This document shows, piece by piece, positions 11,128-16,632 of a DNA stretch of 64,000 nt (within the stretch, counting starts at the first letter, position 1; each line of letters opens with the position of its first letter). The DNA is from Sphingomonas sp. (GTDB lineage: Bacteria; Pseudomonadota; Alphaproteobacteria; Sphingomonadales; Sphingomonadaceae). Under the pieces are notes generated by a model. That model saw only the letters and a list, made by a program, of their open reading frames with translations, was not told where the DNA came from and did no database searches. The position numbers were made by a program, and so were the translations under genes. The DNA is taken from the NCBI GenBank assembly GCA_013001055.1, contig JABDNH010000003.1:124001-188000 (forward strand). Reading direction: 5' to 3'.

Positions 11128-11691
11128 CTAGGCCTTAGGCTTGCGTGTCGCCGGCTTCCTTGACGTGGTCTTTTTCGCAGCGGTCTTGCGTGCCGCGGGC
11201 TTCTTGGCAGTCGCCTTCTTGGTGGCCGGCTTCTTGGTCGCGGTTTTCTTGGCAGGTGCCTTTTTCGCAACGGCCTTCTTCGCCGGTGCCTTGCTTGCGG
11301 ACTTGGCTGCCGTTTTCTTGGCCGCAGACTTTTTCTTTGCAGTCGTCTTCTTCTTTGCGCTTTTTGCCTTGGCGGACTCACCGTCATCCCAGTCGCCCGA
11401 CAGGACACGCTGCGCGGCATCGGCGACGGCTTCGGCAATGATCGCGCCGAGCTTGGCGGTGCTGGCTACTGCAGTGGTGGCGGCCTTGTTGGCATTCGCC
11501 GCAGCGTCGATGCTGGCTTCCTGGATCTTCTTGCGTGCCTTGGGGCTCGCCGCGAGCGCGGCGGCGGCGGCGGCAAGACCGGCAGCGATAACCTCGGGGC
11601 TCATCGCGACCTGTGCAAAATTCTTTGACTTTGCGGAAGCCTTGCTGGTGCGCTTCGCGCTAGTCTTACGAGTGGTCTTCTTGGTAGCCAT
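11128..11691 (-). CDS. Histone H1-like / AlgP-like Lys-Ala-rich protein
   Basis: A 187-residue basic, low-complexity protein. The N-terminal half has an Ala-rich helix (SPEVIAAGLAAAAAALAAS). The C-terminal 75 residues are AKK/APAKK/ATKK repeats resembling eukaryotic H1 tails and bacterial AlgP/Hc1 proteins. A DNA-binding, nucleoid-associated role is inferred from composition only. The start is at MATKKTT because GAGGGG precedes it by about 8 nt. Probably first gene of an operon with glmU-glmS. Confidence 0.82.
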   Translation of the reverse strand: MATKKTTRKTSAKRTSKASAKSKNFAQVAMSPEVIAAGLAAAAAALAASPKARKKIQEASIDAAANANKAATTAVASTAKLGAIIAEAVADAAQRVLSGDWDDGESAKAKSAKKKTTAKKKSAAKKTAAKSASKAPAKKAVAKKAPAKKTATKKPATKKATAKKPAARKTAAKKTTSRKPATRKPKA

Positions 11692-11765
11692 AACAAATCC
11701 CCTCTTGGAACGCGTCTTATGCCGACAAGACGGCCATAGCAGAAATTCGTTCCCGCACACGAAAA

Positions 11766-12638: not shown

Positions 12639-12664
12639 GTAACCTTCCCGGCACCGAAGACGAA
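12639..12664 (+). promoter_or_regulatory. SigmaF-type promoter of the first bufferin gene
   Basis: GTAACC (12639-12644), 16 bp, CGAA (12661-12664). This equals the Caulobacter SigF consensus as I recall it (GTAACC-N16-CGAA). It lies 56 bp before the ATG of the first DUF2282 gene. The cognate sigma factor is encoded at 15476-16000 in the same gene row. Confidence 0.75.
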
Positions 12665-12719: not shown

Positions 12720-13070
12720 ATGAAAAGAACCATTCCTGCGATCGCGGCCGCTTCTGCGCTGCTTGCGGCCTGTACGGATTCGCCAACTTATGCTGACGAG
12801 GATGGCGTCGCGGACGATACGGCGACCGAAGTTGCCGATGGCGACGTCACCGAAGCTGCAGCAGATGAAGATAAGGTCAAATGCTATGGTGTGGCGCTCG
12901 CTGGCGAAAATGATTGCGCTGCCGGCGAAGGTACGACCTGTGCCGGCACCTCGACCGTCGACTATCAGGGCAACGCCTGGAAATATGTCGATGGTGGCGA
13001 AGCCGGTTGCGCCGATACGGGCGGCACGCTGGTTGCCCAGGACAATAATGAGCAGGGCCTTCCGGCTTAA
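12720..13070 (+). CDS. Bufferin-like DUF2282 precursor with predicted lipobox
   Basis: A 116-residue DUF2282 protein with core [16 protein letters not shown]...[17 protein letters not shown] and four core cysteines. Unlike ordinary BufA1, the signal sequence ends in a lipobox, LAAC, with Cys18, followed by an acidic linker of about 33 residues. This suggests a lipid-anchored bufferin. Signal peptidase I cleavage after TYA is the alternative. It has its own SigF-type promoter, and GGGGAG precedes the ATG. It is separated by 111 bp from the second precursor. Confidence 0.85.
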
Positions 13071-13103
13071 ACCTTTCGCTGTCGTCGCCGCTCGGTAAAT
13101 CGT

Positions 13104-13129
13104 GTAACATTTGACCGGGCGGCTCCGAA
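13104..13129 (+). promoter_or_regulatory. SigmaF-type promoter of the second bufferin gene
   Basis: GTAACA (13104-13109), 16 bp, CGAA (13126-13129), 53 bp before the ATG of the second DUF2282 gene. It has the same spacing as the promoter at 12639. Together they indicate that both precursors belong to the SigF regulon. Confidence 0.72.
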
Positions 13130-13181
13130 CTTCGGGGTGCAAGACGATCTTGCGAAGCTCGATAAAAGAGGAAATTCACCA

Positions 13182-13475
13182 ATGAAAAATCTCGCTGCCA
13201 TCTCCGCCGCTTCCGCGCTCCTTGGCCTCGCCGCCGTTGCGACGCCTGCAGCGGCCGATCATCACGGCAAGAAAGCCGACAAGGAAAAATGCTACGGCGT
13301 CGCCAAGGCCGGTCAGAATGATTGCGCGGCCGGGCCCGGCACGAGCTGTGCCGGCACTTCGAAAATCGACTATCAAGGCAATGCCTGGAAATATGTCGAA
13401 GCTGGTAAGTGCGTGAAGATGGGTGGTTCCTTGAAGCCCAAAGAAGGCAACAAGAAGCCTGTCCCGCAGGCCTAG
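13182..13475 (+). CDS. bufA1: Bufferin precursor BufA1 (DUF2282)
   Basis: A 97-residue secreted RiPP precursor: Sec signal peptide (cleavage near TPAAA-DHH), then core [16 protein letters not shown]...[17 protein letters not shown] and GKCVKMGG, four cysteines in all. In this family BufB, with BufC, oxidises core cysteines, and the product sequesters copper in the envelope. AGAGGA precedes the ATG. The stop is followed within 6 bp by bufB, so expression is coupled. The core is nearly identical to the lipobox paralogue just upstream. Confidence 0.92.
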
Positions 13476-13481
13476 GTGCGC

Positions 13482-14351
13482 ATGACCGGCGCTGCGCGAC
13501 ACGAGCCCCCTCCGCCGCGGGCGGGGATTGGTCTGAAGTCCGCTCACTTCAGCGAATTCCTCGATGCGGCGGCGCGCGGCGCCGGTCCTCGCTGGGTGGA
13601 AGTCCACCCCCAGAACTACATGATGGACGGCGGCCCCATGCACCGCTGGCTGACCGCCGTGCGCGAAGCCGTCCCGGTTTCGTTCCATAGCGTCGGCCTG
13701 TCGCTCGGCGATCCCGATGGAGTGGACCGCGCAGAGCTCGAGCGGCTTGCAAATCTGTGCGAGCGCTACGAGCCCAATCTTGTGTCGGACCATCTCAGCT
13801 GGTCGAGCCTCGATGGGGAGAATGTGCCCGATCTGCTCCCGCTTCCGATGACCGCTGCGACGCTGGCGCACTTCGCCGAGCAGATCGATATCGTCCAGGA
13901 ACGGCTTGGTCGCACGATGTTGATCGAAAATCCCAGTCGCATGATCGCCTTCGCCGGCGACACTTACGACGAGCCCGACTTTCTCGGCGAACTGACCCGC
14001 CGCACGGGCTGCCGGCTGATCGTCGACGTCAACAATATCCTCGTCCAGCGCACCAACCTGGGGATCGACCCCCATGCCTATGTCGACGGTTTGGATGGCG
14101 CGATGGTCGGCGAGATTCATGTTGCGGGCCACACGGTCGAGGAACATGGCGCGGATCGTCTCGCCATCGATGACCACGGCAGTGAGGTAGACGACGAATG
14201 CTGGGCGTTGCTCCAGCGTTTCATTGCGCGCATCGGCCCGCGCCCTGTCCTGCTCGAACGCGACAATGACGTGCCCTCTTTCCAGCAACTCGCTGCCGAG
14301 GCCGCACGCGCCGACGACATGCTCCTCTCGCTCCATGCCGACGCCGCCTGA
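13482..14351 (+). CDS. bufB: MNIO-family bufferin maturase (DUF692)
   Basis: A TIM-barrel multinuclear non-heme iron oxidase that modifies cysteines of BufA precursors. About 289 residues with the expected metal ligands in FHSVGLSLGD, SDHLSW, IENPS, VDVNN, EIHVAGH, DDHG and LERDND. The start is at ATG 13482, 6 bp after the bufA1 stop. A GTG at 13476 is equally possible. There is no independent ribosome site, so translation is coupled. It overlaps bufC by 17 bp. Confidence 0.94.
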   Translation: MTGAARHEPPPPRAGIGLKSAHFSEFLDAAARGAGPRWVEVHPQNYMMDGGPMHRWLTAVREAVPVSFHSVGLSLGDPDGVDRAELERLANLCERYEPNLVSDHLSWSSLDGENVPDLLPLPMTAATLAHFAEQIDIVQERLGRTMLIENPSRMIAFAGDTYDEPDFLGELTRRTGCRLIVDVNNILVQRTNLGIDPHAYVDGLDGAMVGEIHVAGHTVEEHGADRLAIDDHGSEVDDECWALLQRFIARIGPRPVLLERDNDVPSFQQLAAEAARADDMLLSLHADAA

Positions 14352-15027
14352 CCCGCGCGCGGCGATGAAAATCTCGCTCGATCGCGGGCCTGATTTCGTT
14401 CCCGAAAACCTGTTCGCCGGCAGCCGCGCGGCGCAGTTCCGCGCGCTCAGGGCTTATGCCAACACGATCAGTCACGGACGGTTCGCGGCGCTGGAAAACA
14501 GTTTCCCGAAAACCCGCGAAGCAATCGGCGAGGAAGTCTTTCACGCGCTCGCCGAAGGCTATCTCACAGGCGAAGTTCTCATGCGCCCGATCCGTTTGAT
14601 CGGTAAGGGATTTCCGGCGCGGCTGGAAAAGGACGATCCCATCGCTGCCGACCTGGCTGACAGCGAATGGGCGATGCTGATGGCGCACGGCGCCGCCGAT
14701 GCCGAAGCCTTGACGCCCGATGCGATCAAGAACCACACCCCCGAAAGTCTCGTTGAAATCAAAGCAGTGCAGCATCCGGCGACACAAATCGTAAGATTGC
14801 GTAACGCTTCGCGCTTTTCTTACGAATATGCAGGTGATGGCCCGCTGCTGCTCATCACGCGCCCCCAAGCGAGCGTCCTGTTCGCCCGAATCGGGGAATC
14901 CGAGGCAGCGCTGCTGGCCATGGCATCCGAGCCGATCATGCTCGGACGTCTGTTGGAAGCCGATGGACCGGCGGTGACACCGCTGATCAACCAAGGCGCT
15001 TTATGCGCCGCTGAGGAGCAACAATGA
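14335..15027 (+). CDS. bufC: Bufferin maturation partner (DUF2063)
   Basis: A 230-residue DUF2063 protein, annotated as putative DNA-binding but in buf operons the substrate-recognition partner of the MNIO enzyme. The N-terminal part FAGSRAAQFRALRAYANTI...ALENSFPKTREAIG is typical. The C-terminal half is less conserved. The start at ATG 14335 overlaps bufB, and ATG 14365 (MKISLD) is an alternative. The stop overlaps the DoxX gene by 4 bp. Confidence 0.88.
   Translation: MPTPPDPRAAMKISLDRGPDFVPENLFAGSRAAQFRALRAYANTISHGRFAALENSFPKTREAIGEEVFHALAEGYLTGEVLMRPIRLIGKGFPARLEKDDPIAADLADSEWAMLMAHGAADAEALTPDAIKNHTPESLVEIKAVQHPATQIVRLRNASRFSYEYAGDGPLLLITRPQASVLFARIGESEAALLAMASEPIMLGRLLEADGPAVTPLINQGALCAAEEQQ
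14801..14826 (+). promoter_or_regulatory. Possible internal SigmaF-like promoter inside bufC
   Basis: GTAACG (14801-14806), 16 bp, CGAA (14823-14826) fits the same pattern as the two bufferin promoters. It lies inside coding sequence, about 200 bp before doxX. It could give extra transcription of doxX-sigF-nrsF, but a chance match of this quality is not unlikely in 64 kb. Confidence 0.3.
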
Positions 15028-15479
15028 TCGAGGGTCTTTACCGGAAGATTGCAGCCAGCCAGCTTGCCAGGGATATCAGCCTGCTGTTCCTGCGCATCGG
15101 TTTTGGCGCCGTCTTCTTTCGCTCCTATCAGACCAAGGTCGAGGACGGCACGTTTTTCGACTTGACCGACACCACATTTTTCCTCTTCGAAGAAGAATAT
15201 GCCGGCGTGCCGATACCTGCCGACATCGCCGCGCCGCTCGCCACCTATGCCGAGTTTTTCCTGCCACTCCTGCTGCTGCTCGGGCTCGGCACTCGGGTGG
15301 CGGCAGCGGGTCTTGTCATCATGACGCTGGTCATCCAGATCTTCGTCTATCCGGACGCGTGGTGGAACCCGCATATGAGCTGGGTCGCGATGGGACTTAT
15401 CCTCATCGTGTTCGGGCCGGGGCGCATTAGCCTTGACCACCTGATTGGCAAGGTCCGCGACAGGCATGCTGCCACATGA
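15024..15479 (+). CDS. DoxX-family membrane protein
   Basis: A 151-residue four-helix membrane protein (helices near residues 17-35, 70-90, 95-112, 118-135). The N-terminal LFLRIGFGAVFF is typical of DoxX. It is part of the buf operon, coupled by ATGA overlaps on both sides. DoxX proteins occur in many buf operons and may serve redox or electron supply, which is not proved. Confidence 0.88.
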   Translation: MIEGLYRKIAASQLARDISLLFLRIGFGAVFFRSYQTKVEDGTFFDLTDTTFFLFEEEYAGVPIPADIAAPLATYAEFFLPLLLLLGLGTRVAAAGLVIMTLVIQIFVYPDAWWNPHMSWVAMGLILIVFGPGRISLDHLIGKVRDRHAAT

Positions 15480-16000
15480 TCCTGTCCGATCACGATATGC
15501 GCACACTGATGGCGAAAGGGCAGGAAGGCGACAAGCCGTCCTACCGCGCCGCGCTGTCGGCAGCGACGGACTGGCTCAAACGTTTCTACGCCAAACGGAT
15601 CGCGTCGACGATGGTCGATGACCTTGTGCAGGAAACGCTGATCAGCCTCCACACGAAGCGCGCCAGTTATGACCCCGCGCGGCCATTCTACCCGTGGCTG
15701 GCGGCGATTGCGCGCTATCGCTGGATCGACCTGCTGCGCAAACTTGAGCGCACGCCAGAGGACGAATTGGCTTTTGATCCTGCGATCCCTTCGGTTGAAG
15801 AACCCGTCATATCGCGCCTCAGTCTCGACCGGTTGCTCGACAACCTGCCCAAGGCGCAGGCCAACGCCATCCTCCTCACCAAGGTCGAGGGTCACAGCAT
15901 CAAGGACGTGTCGGTCATGACCGGCCAGTCCGAGAGCCTTGTCAAAGTCAATGTGCATCGCGGTCTCAAGAAACTCGCTGCGCTTGTAGAAAGCGAATAA
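15476..16000 (+). CDS. sigF: ECF RNA polymerase sigma factor (SigF-like)
   Basis: A 174-residue two-domain sigma factor. Region 2 is around VDDLVQETLISLHTKRASYDP and PWLAAIARYRWIDLLRK. Region 4 is around LPKAQANAILLTKVEGHSIKDVS and VKVNVHRGLKKL. It is encoded 2 bp before nrsF and overlaps doxX by 4 bp. This is the Caulobacter SigF-NrsF arrangement, in which the pair controls a small regulon including the bufferin operon. SigF-type promoters in front of both precursors suggest positive autoregulation. Confidence 0.92.
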   Translation: MILSDHDMRTLMAKGQEGDKPSYRAALSAATDWLKRFYAKRIASTMVDDLVQETLISLHTKRASYDPARPFYPWLAAIARYRWIDLLRKLERTPEDELAFDPAIPSVEEPVISRLSLDRLLDNLPKAQANAILLTKVEGHSIKDVSVMTGQSESLVKVNVHRGLKKLAALVESE

Positions 16001-16002
16001 AC

Positions 16003-16632
16003 ATGAATAGCCAAGCCCTCATCGACCAGCTCAGCGAGGACATGACCTCCGTCAAGCCATTGTCGGTGCGAAACAGTCGGTTGCTCGCGCTCGCCGCAGC
16101 GGCTTCGTCGACCGCAGCAGTGCTCGCCTTTCTTGGCGTGCGTAGCGATATCGCCGCTGGCGCCCCCTCGCCTGTCATCCTGCTGGTTGCCGGTCTCTTT
16201 GCGCTAACCGCAATTTCCGCCGGCATCACCGCCACGCGGCTCGCACGGCCTGCCGTCGGTGGCGGCCAGGGCGGCGCCTTGTGGATGGCGGCAGCGATCG
16301 GGCTATTGCCCGCGATCAGCCTGATCGAATATCTGCTTGGCGCCGGGCAACCGACGTCGAGTGAAGTGGCATTGCGCTGCCTCTATTGGGGCATCGCTGC
16401 AAGCCTGGTGACGCTTGGCGTCCTGACGCGGCGTCTCAAGCAGGGTGCGCCGGTGCTACCCGAACGCGCCGGGCTGTTCGCCGGGCTTGCTGCCGGTGCC
16501 GTGGGCGCGTTCGCGATCACGCTCGAGTGCAACAATAGCCAGTTTGTCCACCTTGCGCTCAGCCATGCCGCGATCGTCGCCACGATGGCGCTGGCCGGGC
16601 GGACGCTGATACCCCGCTTCATCCGCTGGTAG
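16003..16632 (+). CDS. nrsF: NrsF-type anti-sigma factor (DUF1109)
   Basis: A 209-residue inner-membrane protein with six predicted helices that holds SigF inactive. Two cysteines, Cys126 (ALRCLYWG) and Cys176 (TLECNNS), are 50 residues apart, at the ends of helices where the family's stress- or metal-sensing pair lies. The N-terminal cytoplasmic segment (about 25 residues) would bind the sigma factor. It is the last gene of the buf row; tRNA-Arg follows 48 bp downstream. Confidence 0.92.
   Translation: MNSQALIDQLSEDMTSVKPLSVRNSRLLALAAAASSTAAVLAFLGVRSDIAAGAPSPVILLVAGLFALTAISAGITATRLARPAVGGGQGGALWMAAAIGLLPAISLIEYLLGAGQPTSSEVALRCLYWGIAASLVTLGVLTRRLKQGAPVLPERAGLFAGLAAGAVGAFAITLECNNSQFVHLALSHAAIVATMALAGRTLIPRFIRW

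Follow-up and report, generated by a model that had tools for sequence, protein, structure and literature searches.

The first of two tandem bufferin precursor genes in the window (the whole 64,000-nucleotide stretch of Sphingomonas sp. DNA analyzed here) probably encodes a Buf1 lipoprotein that is modified by BufBC and acts as a tethered copper buffer beside a free twin. Lipidation of the first precursor (P0001) is predicted from its sequence and is highly probable. Modification of its cysteines by BufBC, which in Buf1 bufferins yields 5-thiooxazoles, is expected with good confidence, and P0001 would bind copper by analogy with the Buf1 family, on which the copper role rests. It is very likely that one BufBC pair serves both a membrane-fixed and a free bufferin.

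Precursor genes, gene cluster, and regulation

Both precursor genes are on the forward strand (12720-13070 and 13182-13475), and both products belong to Buf1 by domain, matching DUF2282 (PF10048) at 67.8 bits (E = 7.9e-19) for the first and 85.5 bits (E = 2.3e-24) for the second, against a cut-off of 22.4 bits. A search of the whole genome found no PF10048 match besides these two. The gene order is also that of Buf1 clusters: precursor, MNIO, and DUF2063 protein, with DoxX and sigF/nrsF close by. All of these genes are on the forward strand and encode BufB (the MNIO; DUF692, PF05114) at 13476-14351, the partner protein BufC (DUF2063, PF09836) at 14365-15027 (start set by eye; scanned frame 14359-15027), DoxX at 15024-15479, an ECF sigma factor that is SigF-like by context at 15476-16000, and NrsF, the negative regulator of sigma F, at 16003-16632. 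Elsewhere in the window, the open reading frame list includes a 210-residue frame on the reverse strand (11128-11760) that is rich in Ala and Lys and resembles a histone H1-type tail.

P0001 is 116 amino acids long and consists of a signal with a lipobox, an acidic linker, and a DUF2282 core. The lipobox, L15-A16-A17-C18, is encoded at 12762-12773 (+), with TGT as the Cys18 codon (12771-12773). It is followed by 36 residues of acidic linker (residues 19-54; 12774-12881, +) up to Cys55 of the core (12873-13019, +), which carries four conserved cysteines (C55, C66, C74, and C97). By general rules for lipoprotein signals, P0001 fits the pattern: an n-region, a hydrophobic stretch, and a lipobox near residue 18. 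The second precursor (P0002, 97 aa) has a signal peptidase I (SPI)-type signal, likely cut between ATPAAA and DHH as judged by eye, and is an ordinary secreted Buf1 (BufA1). The first-pass annotation had described two tandem bufferin precursors, the first with a lipobox and a long acidic linker ahead of the core and the second of the usual secreted kind, and each of these points can be read directly from the translations. A Pfam scan of P0001 with E values up to 10 reported no lipid-attachment profile, under HMMER filters that drop most weak matches. Apart from DUF2282, the scan gave a match to Ecm33 over residues 1-20 (E = 0.046), which was below cut-off and was ignored. An AlphaFold model of P0001 built from a 20-row alignment was too poor to use (mean pLDDT 60.7, pTM 0.41).

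The sigma-F motif of Caulobacter is given as GTAACC-N16-CGAA in the accessible text of PMC3511200. An exact copy is located 81 nt before the first ATG (12639-12664, +), and a sigma-F-type motif with one mismatch, GTAACA-N16-CGAA, is located 78 nt before the second ATG (13104-13129, +). With a separate motif before each precursor gene, expression of the two could be set separately. A third match, GTAACG-N16-CGAA, is inside bufC and upstream of doxX-sigF-nrsF (14801-14826, +), where it may act as an internal promoter for sigma-F. Among the 53 lipobox genes collected in this study (see below), 26 have the exact motif within 300 nt upstream, at 61-87 nt from the start, and single-base shuffles gave an exact motif in about 1 in 10,000. 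Nine of these 26 genes belong to the 28 loci without bufB in view. The other 27 of the 53 have no exact motif within 300 nt upstream; some of these are the second gene of a pair, and many are stand-alone. The EcfG-type motif, GGAAC-N16-18-CGTT, was found upstream of none of the 53. As judged from these motifs, the cluster is probably expressed under sigma-F. At two loci (L290 and L284), a lipobox Buf1 gene without a sigma-F motif is near genes of the general stress response, namely those for an HWE histidine kinase and a NepR anti-sigma factor.

Distribution and gene settings of lipobox precursors

Of 397 Pseudomonadota genomes sampled evenly, 125 had Buf1, with 140 matches, of which 139 were classed. 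The remaining match (L103; G308:C6:951778-953939) is in a 306-residue frame with one in-frame TAG and gave no row. Lipobox precursors were restricted to the window's family, taken as Sphingomonadaceae in the broad sense, where they made up 7 of 19 precursors, compared with 0 of 120 elsewhere (Fisher 3e-7). Counted by genome, the figures were 5/12 and 0/113 (Fisher 3e-6). The window's own genome was bound to be in the sample; with it removed, 6 of 17 precursors (Fisher 1.5e-6) and 4 of 11 genomes (Fisher 3.5e-5) in the family had the lipobox. At one locus (L028), the lipobox depended entirely on an upstream start that was implausible, so the locus was counted as non-lipobox, and 19 of the 20 initial calls were kept.

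The even sample, a family sample, and 80 named loci together yielded 53 distinct lipobox Buf1 precursors. From the family sample (107 genomes), the analysis covered 30 loci plus 18 further regions or matches with an early-starting hit or next to one. The 53 include precursors of Sphingomicrobium lutaoense (L179), Erythrobacter sp. AP23, and Sphingorhabdus sp. Alg239-R122. The 53 (of 298 distinct precursors) were selected by their lipobox, mostly from searches with the lipobox protein, so neither this fraction nor the sharing of the four core cysteines by all 53 is a frequency. None of the 53 has a cysteine in the linker, and their core shows the same conservation as that of secreted Buf1. Net charge is negative for the linker in 52/53 and for the whole mature protein in 49/53. 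The residue after the lipobox cysteine (+2) is Ser in 35, Gly in 13, Thr in 3, Asn in 1, and Glu in 1, and it is never Asp. Among matches picked by rank and not for a lipobox, the 11 best to P0001 (L003-L013, L003 being the window; alignments from residue 1-9) all have one, and two lower-ranked matches that also start early (L031 and L173) do not.

Lipobox rows were clustered in a tree of 127 Buf1 cores (68 columns), which took from the 298 distinct precursors the rows for the window's family and six outgroups. The lipobox character required 9 changes, compared with 38.7 when shuffled (0 of 500 shuffles as low). In the same tree, 74 of 120 inner branches were open and the starred branches force only two changes, so the tree favours neither a single origin nor several. 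Of the 53 lipobox precursors, five did not pass the tree filter (L082 twice, L097, and L135 twice).

Lipobox DUF2282 genes beside bufB, which the first-pass annotation had proposed to look for, were found in two arrangements when loci spanning at most 12 kb were compared. A lipobox and a secreted Buf1 are in tandem before bufB in the window and at ten other distinct loci (L292, L298, L305, L306, L313-L316, L320, and L323); in 8 of these 11, the lipobox gene comes first. At five loci (L304, L317-L319, and L321), a lipobox Buf1 alone directly precedes bufB, and in genomes G001, G005, G051, G055, and G713 the lipobox Buf1 before bufB was the sole P0001 match found. Two more (L311 and L312) are on the bufB contig at a distance of 2-3 kb. 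At 28 loci, no bufB was in view, and PF05114 (MNIO) was found elsewhere in the genome in 28/28, a set that represents eight genera and is non-independent. In a control set of 20 genomes from the family in which no Buf1 match was found, two had an MNIO, so the control says only that the gene is not present throughout the family. These gene settings tie the lipobox form to BufBC as its putative modifying pair.

Some other arrangements were observed. Five loci (L284, L285, L286, L307, and L327; genera g41 and g40) carry a tandem pair of distinct lipobox Buf1 genes, and no bufB was in view there. In two genera (L284 and L303), a stand-alone lipobox Buf1 gene is near queuosine genes (TGT and a QueA-type Queuosine_synth). 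At L322 (G652:C1:708869-713976), a 249-residue frame contains two P0001 matches, possibly a double Buf1, and is followed by another Buf1 and bufBC.

Proposed maturation and alternative explanations

In the mechanism we propose, the lipo-Buf1 precursor is co-expressed with BufBC, probably through sigma-F, and BufBC would modify the central core cysteines (C66 and C74) in the cytoplasm. After export by Sec, Lgt would attach diacylglycerol to Cys18, LspA would cleave before this residue, and Lnt would acylate the new N-terminus. The acidic linker would then serve as a tether between the membrane and the copper-binding core, keeping the two apart; the anchoring site is most likely the periplasmic face of the outer membrane. 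The second gene would give the usual free periplasmic Buf1, and one enzyme pair would thus produce two copper buffers, one fixed and one diffusible.

Lgt, LspA, and Lnt genes of the host are above cut-off, and host Pal is built alike, with lipobox IAGC and Ser at +2. Two Lnt (apolipoprotein N-acyltransferase) matches above cut-off are present in the window's genome (G000:C18:52868-54052 and G000:C10:1852-3081). In enterobacteria, the +2 residue (Asp or not) indicates the membrane to which a lipoprotein is sorted. Under this rule, the consistent lack of Asp among the 53 precursors suggests an outer membrane location. The LolA match in the host is below the curated cut-off and gives no firm support for outer membrane sorting.

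Conservation of the lipobox bears on which signal peptidase would act. Among ten same-genus orthologues, including the window, the lipobox codons showed synonymous change only (pN = 0.000, pS = 0.367), and the Cys18 codon is TGT in seven and TGC in three. In the same orthologues, pN/pS was 0.15 for the core, 0.46 for the signal before Cys, and 0.91 for linker positions +2 to +13, the last value being inflated by an ungapped comparison of 12 codons and all values coming from non-independent sequence pairs. By this comparison the lipobox is kept by selection, a claim that rests on the ten orthologues and not on the 53 lipobox rows. The first-pass annotation had allowed for SPI cleavage after TYA, in which case both bufferins would be soluble and Cys18 would be lost with the discarded signal. 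T23-Y24-A25 (12786-12794) is indeed present, fits the -3/-1 rule of signal peptidase I, and is followed by hydrophilic sequence; AxA-like triplets occur within 14 residues after the cysteine in 46 of the 53 lipobox precursors, and the motif alone does not exclude SPI. However, all four lipobox residues, Cys18 included, are invariant in the ten orthologues despite synonymous change, while the TYA positions vary and the rival site is not kept. There would be no reason to expect such conservation of a cysteine in a signal that SPI removes, so evolution speaks against cleavage after TYA. In addition, a cysteine between start and core occurs in just 2 of 241 non-lipobox Buf1 precursors (starts set by a simple rule). 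On these sequence patterns, SPI cleavage is disfavoured, and we consider it highly improbable.

If P0001 is lipidated, it could still not be a BufBC substrate, and it would then be an unmodified four-cysteine metal-binding lipoprotein or a disulfide protein that travels with the cluster. Many lipobox Buf1 genes are apart from bufBC, as this explanation would have it, and preliminary results mentioned in the accessible text of PMC12452194 indicate that BufBC may read the signal peptide, so an altered signal could weaken modification. Against it, the core is like that of secreted Buf1 with its four cysteines in 53/53, the lipobox form is the only match and directly before bufB in five genomes, and an MNIO gene accompanies the stand-alone copy in all 28 genomes. 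We regard this explanation as unlikely. Another possibility is that lipo-Buf1 is chiefly a membrane metal sensor or relay for NrsF/sigma-F and not a copper buffer. Membrane attachment of a metal binder would be in keeping with this role, sigF-nrsF are in the same cluster, and a sigma-F motif precedes 26 of the 53 lipobox genes. However, lipobox genes are often away from sigF, and the two DUF2282 genes with which Caulobacter regulates sigma-F are not described as lipoproteins in the accessible text of PMC3511200. We consider a sensor role quite improbable.

A lipidated, BufBC-modified copper buffer remains our preferred reading for the window. Its extension to the family would be a Sphingomonadaceae lipo-Buf1 branch that acts as a fixed envelope copper buffer beside a free one, with some species having the fixed form only; elsewhere the gene would be off-cluster, often with a sigma-F promoter, and its product modified in trans by the genome's BufBC. 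We hold the chances of this wider proposal to be evenly balanced.

Comparison with known bufferins and lipidated RiPPs

Buf1 bufferins are modified at the central cysteines and have a disulfide between the outer two; tandem and stand-alone bufferin precursors have been reported, and lipoprotein signals occur in about 16% of Buf2 (PMC12452194, accessible text). The term "DAG-RiPPs" was coined in PMC12636315, which in its accessible part assigns SPII signals to "a subset" of bufferins and reports proven RiPP-lipoprotein hybrids (DybA and NedA), with SPII MNIO precursors becoming triacylated and NedA made with an MNIO and a partner protein. No word starting with "lipo" was found in the accessible text of PMC12668002. 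P0001 is an MNIO-linked precursor with an SPII-type signal, by lipobox pattern, and is in this sense a DAG-RiPP. The first-pass annotation had proposed a lipid-anchored and a free bufferin from one BufBC as a new form of the RiPP family. The pair is still the best reading, but the claim of a new form is not supported in that wording, since the literature already predicts lipidated bufferins in general. What is apparently new is the branch of lipo-Buf1 proteins, the occurrence of a free twin beside them, and their sigma-F motifs. Our search turned up no publication describing a lipoprotein branch within Buf1 (DUF2282), its spread in the family, or a lipidated/free pair; supplementary tables were outside this search and may hold such sequences.

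If the preferred reading is true, the cluster is a natural two-compartment experiment, in which the same enzyme and core give a fixed and a free product, and BufBC would be shown to accept SPII-type signals. It could then be asked how bufferins protect: whether they sequester copper in the periplasm, shield the membrane, or leave in vesicles. Test species could be drawn from the genomes in which the lipobox form is the only Buf1 match found.

The system shares with Buf1 bufferins the DUF2282 core with four cysteines, the A-B-C-DoxX order, the sigma-F/NrsF genes, and the sigma-F motif; it differs in that P0001 has a lipobox, a longer acidic linker, and an adjacent SPI-type twin. Buf2 proteins with lipoprotein signals are alike in their predicted membrane anchoring after Sec export. 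However, Buf2 has 6 or 12 cysteines and another core, and the accessible text of PMC12452194 gives no comparable figure for Buf1. DybA (chryseobasin-like) and NedA (a lipidated oxazolin) have different cores (CPACGMG and EGKCG repeats), no free twin is described for them in the accessible part of PMC12636315, and their proof is by mass spectrometry, compared with sequence only here. They are alike in being MNIO-modified precursors with an SPII signal, and NedA is further alike in its MNIO and partner protein and in being a predicted copper binder (PMC12636315, accessible part).
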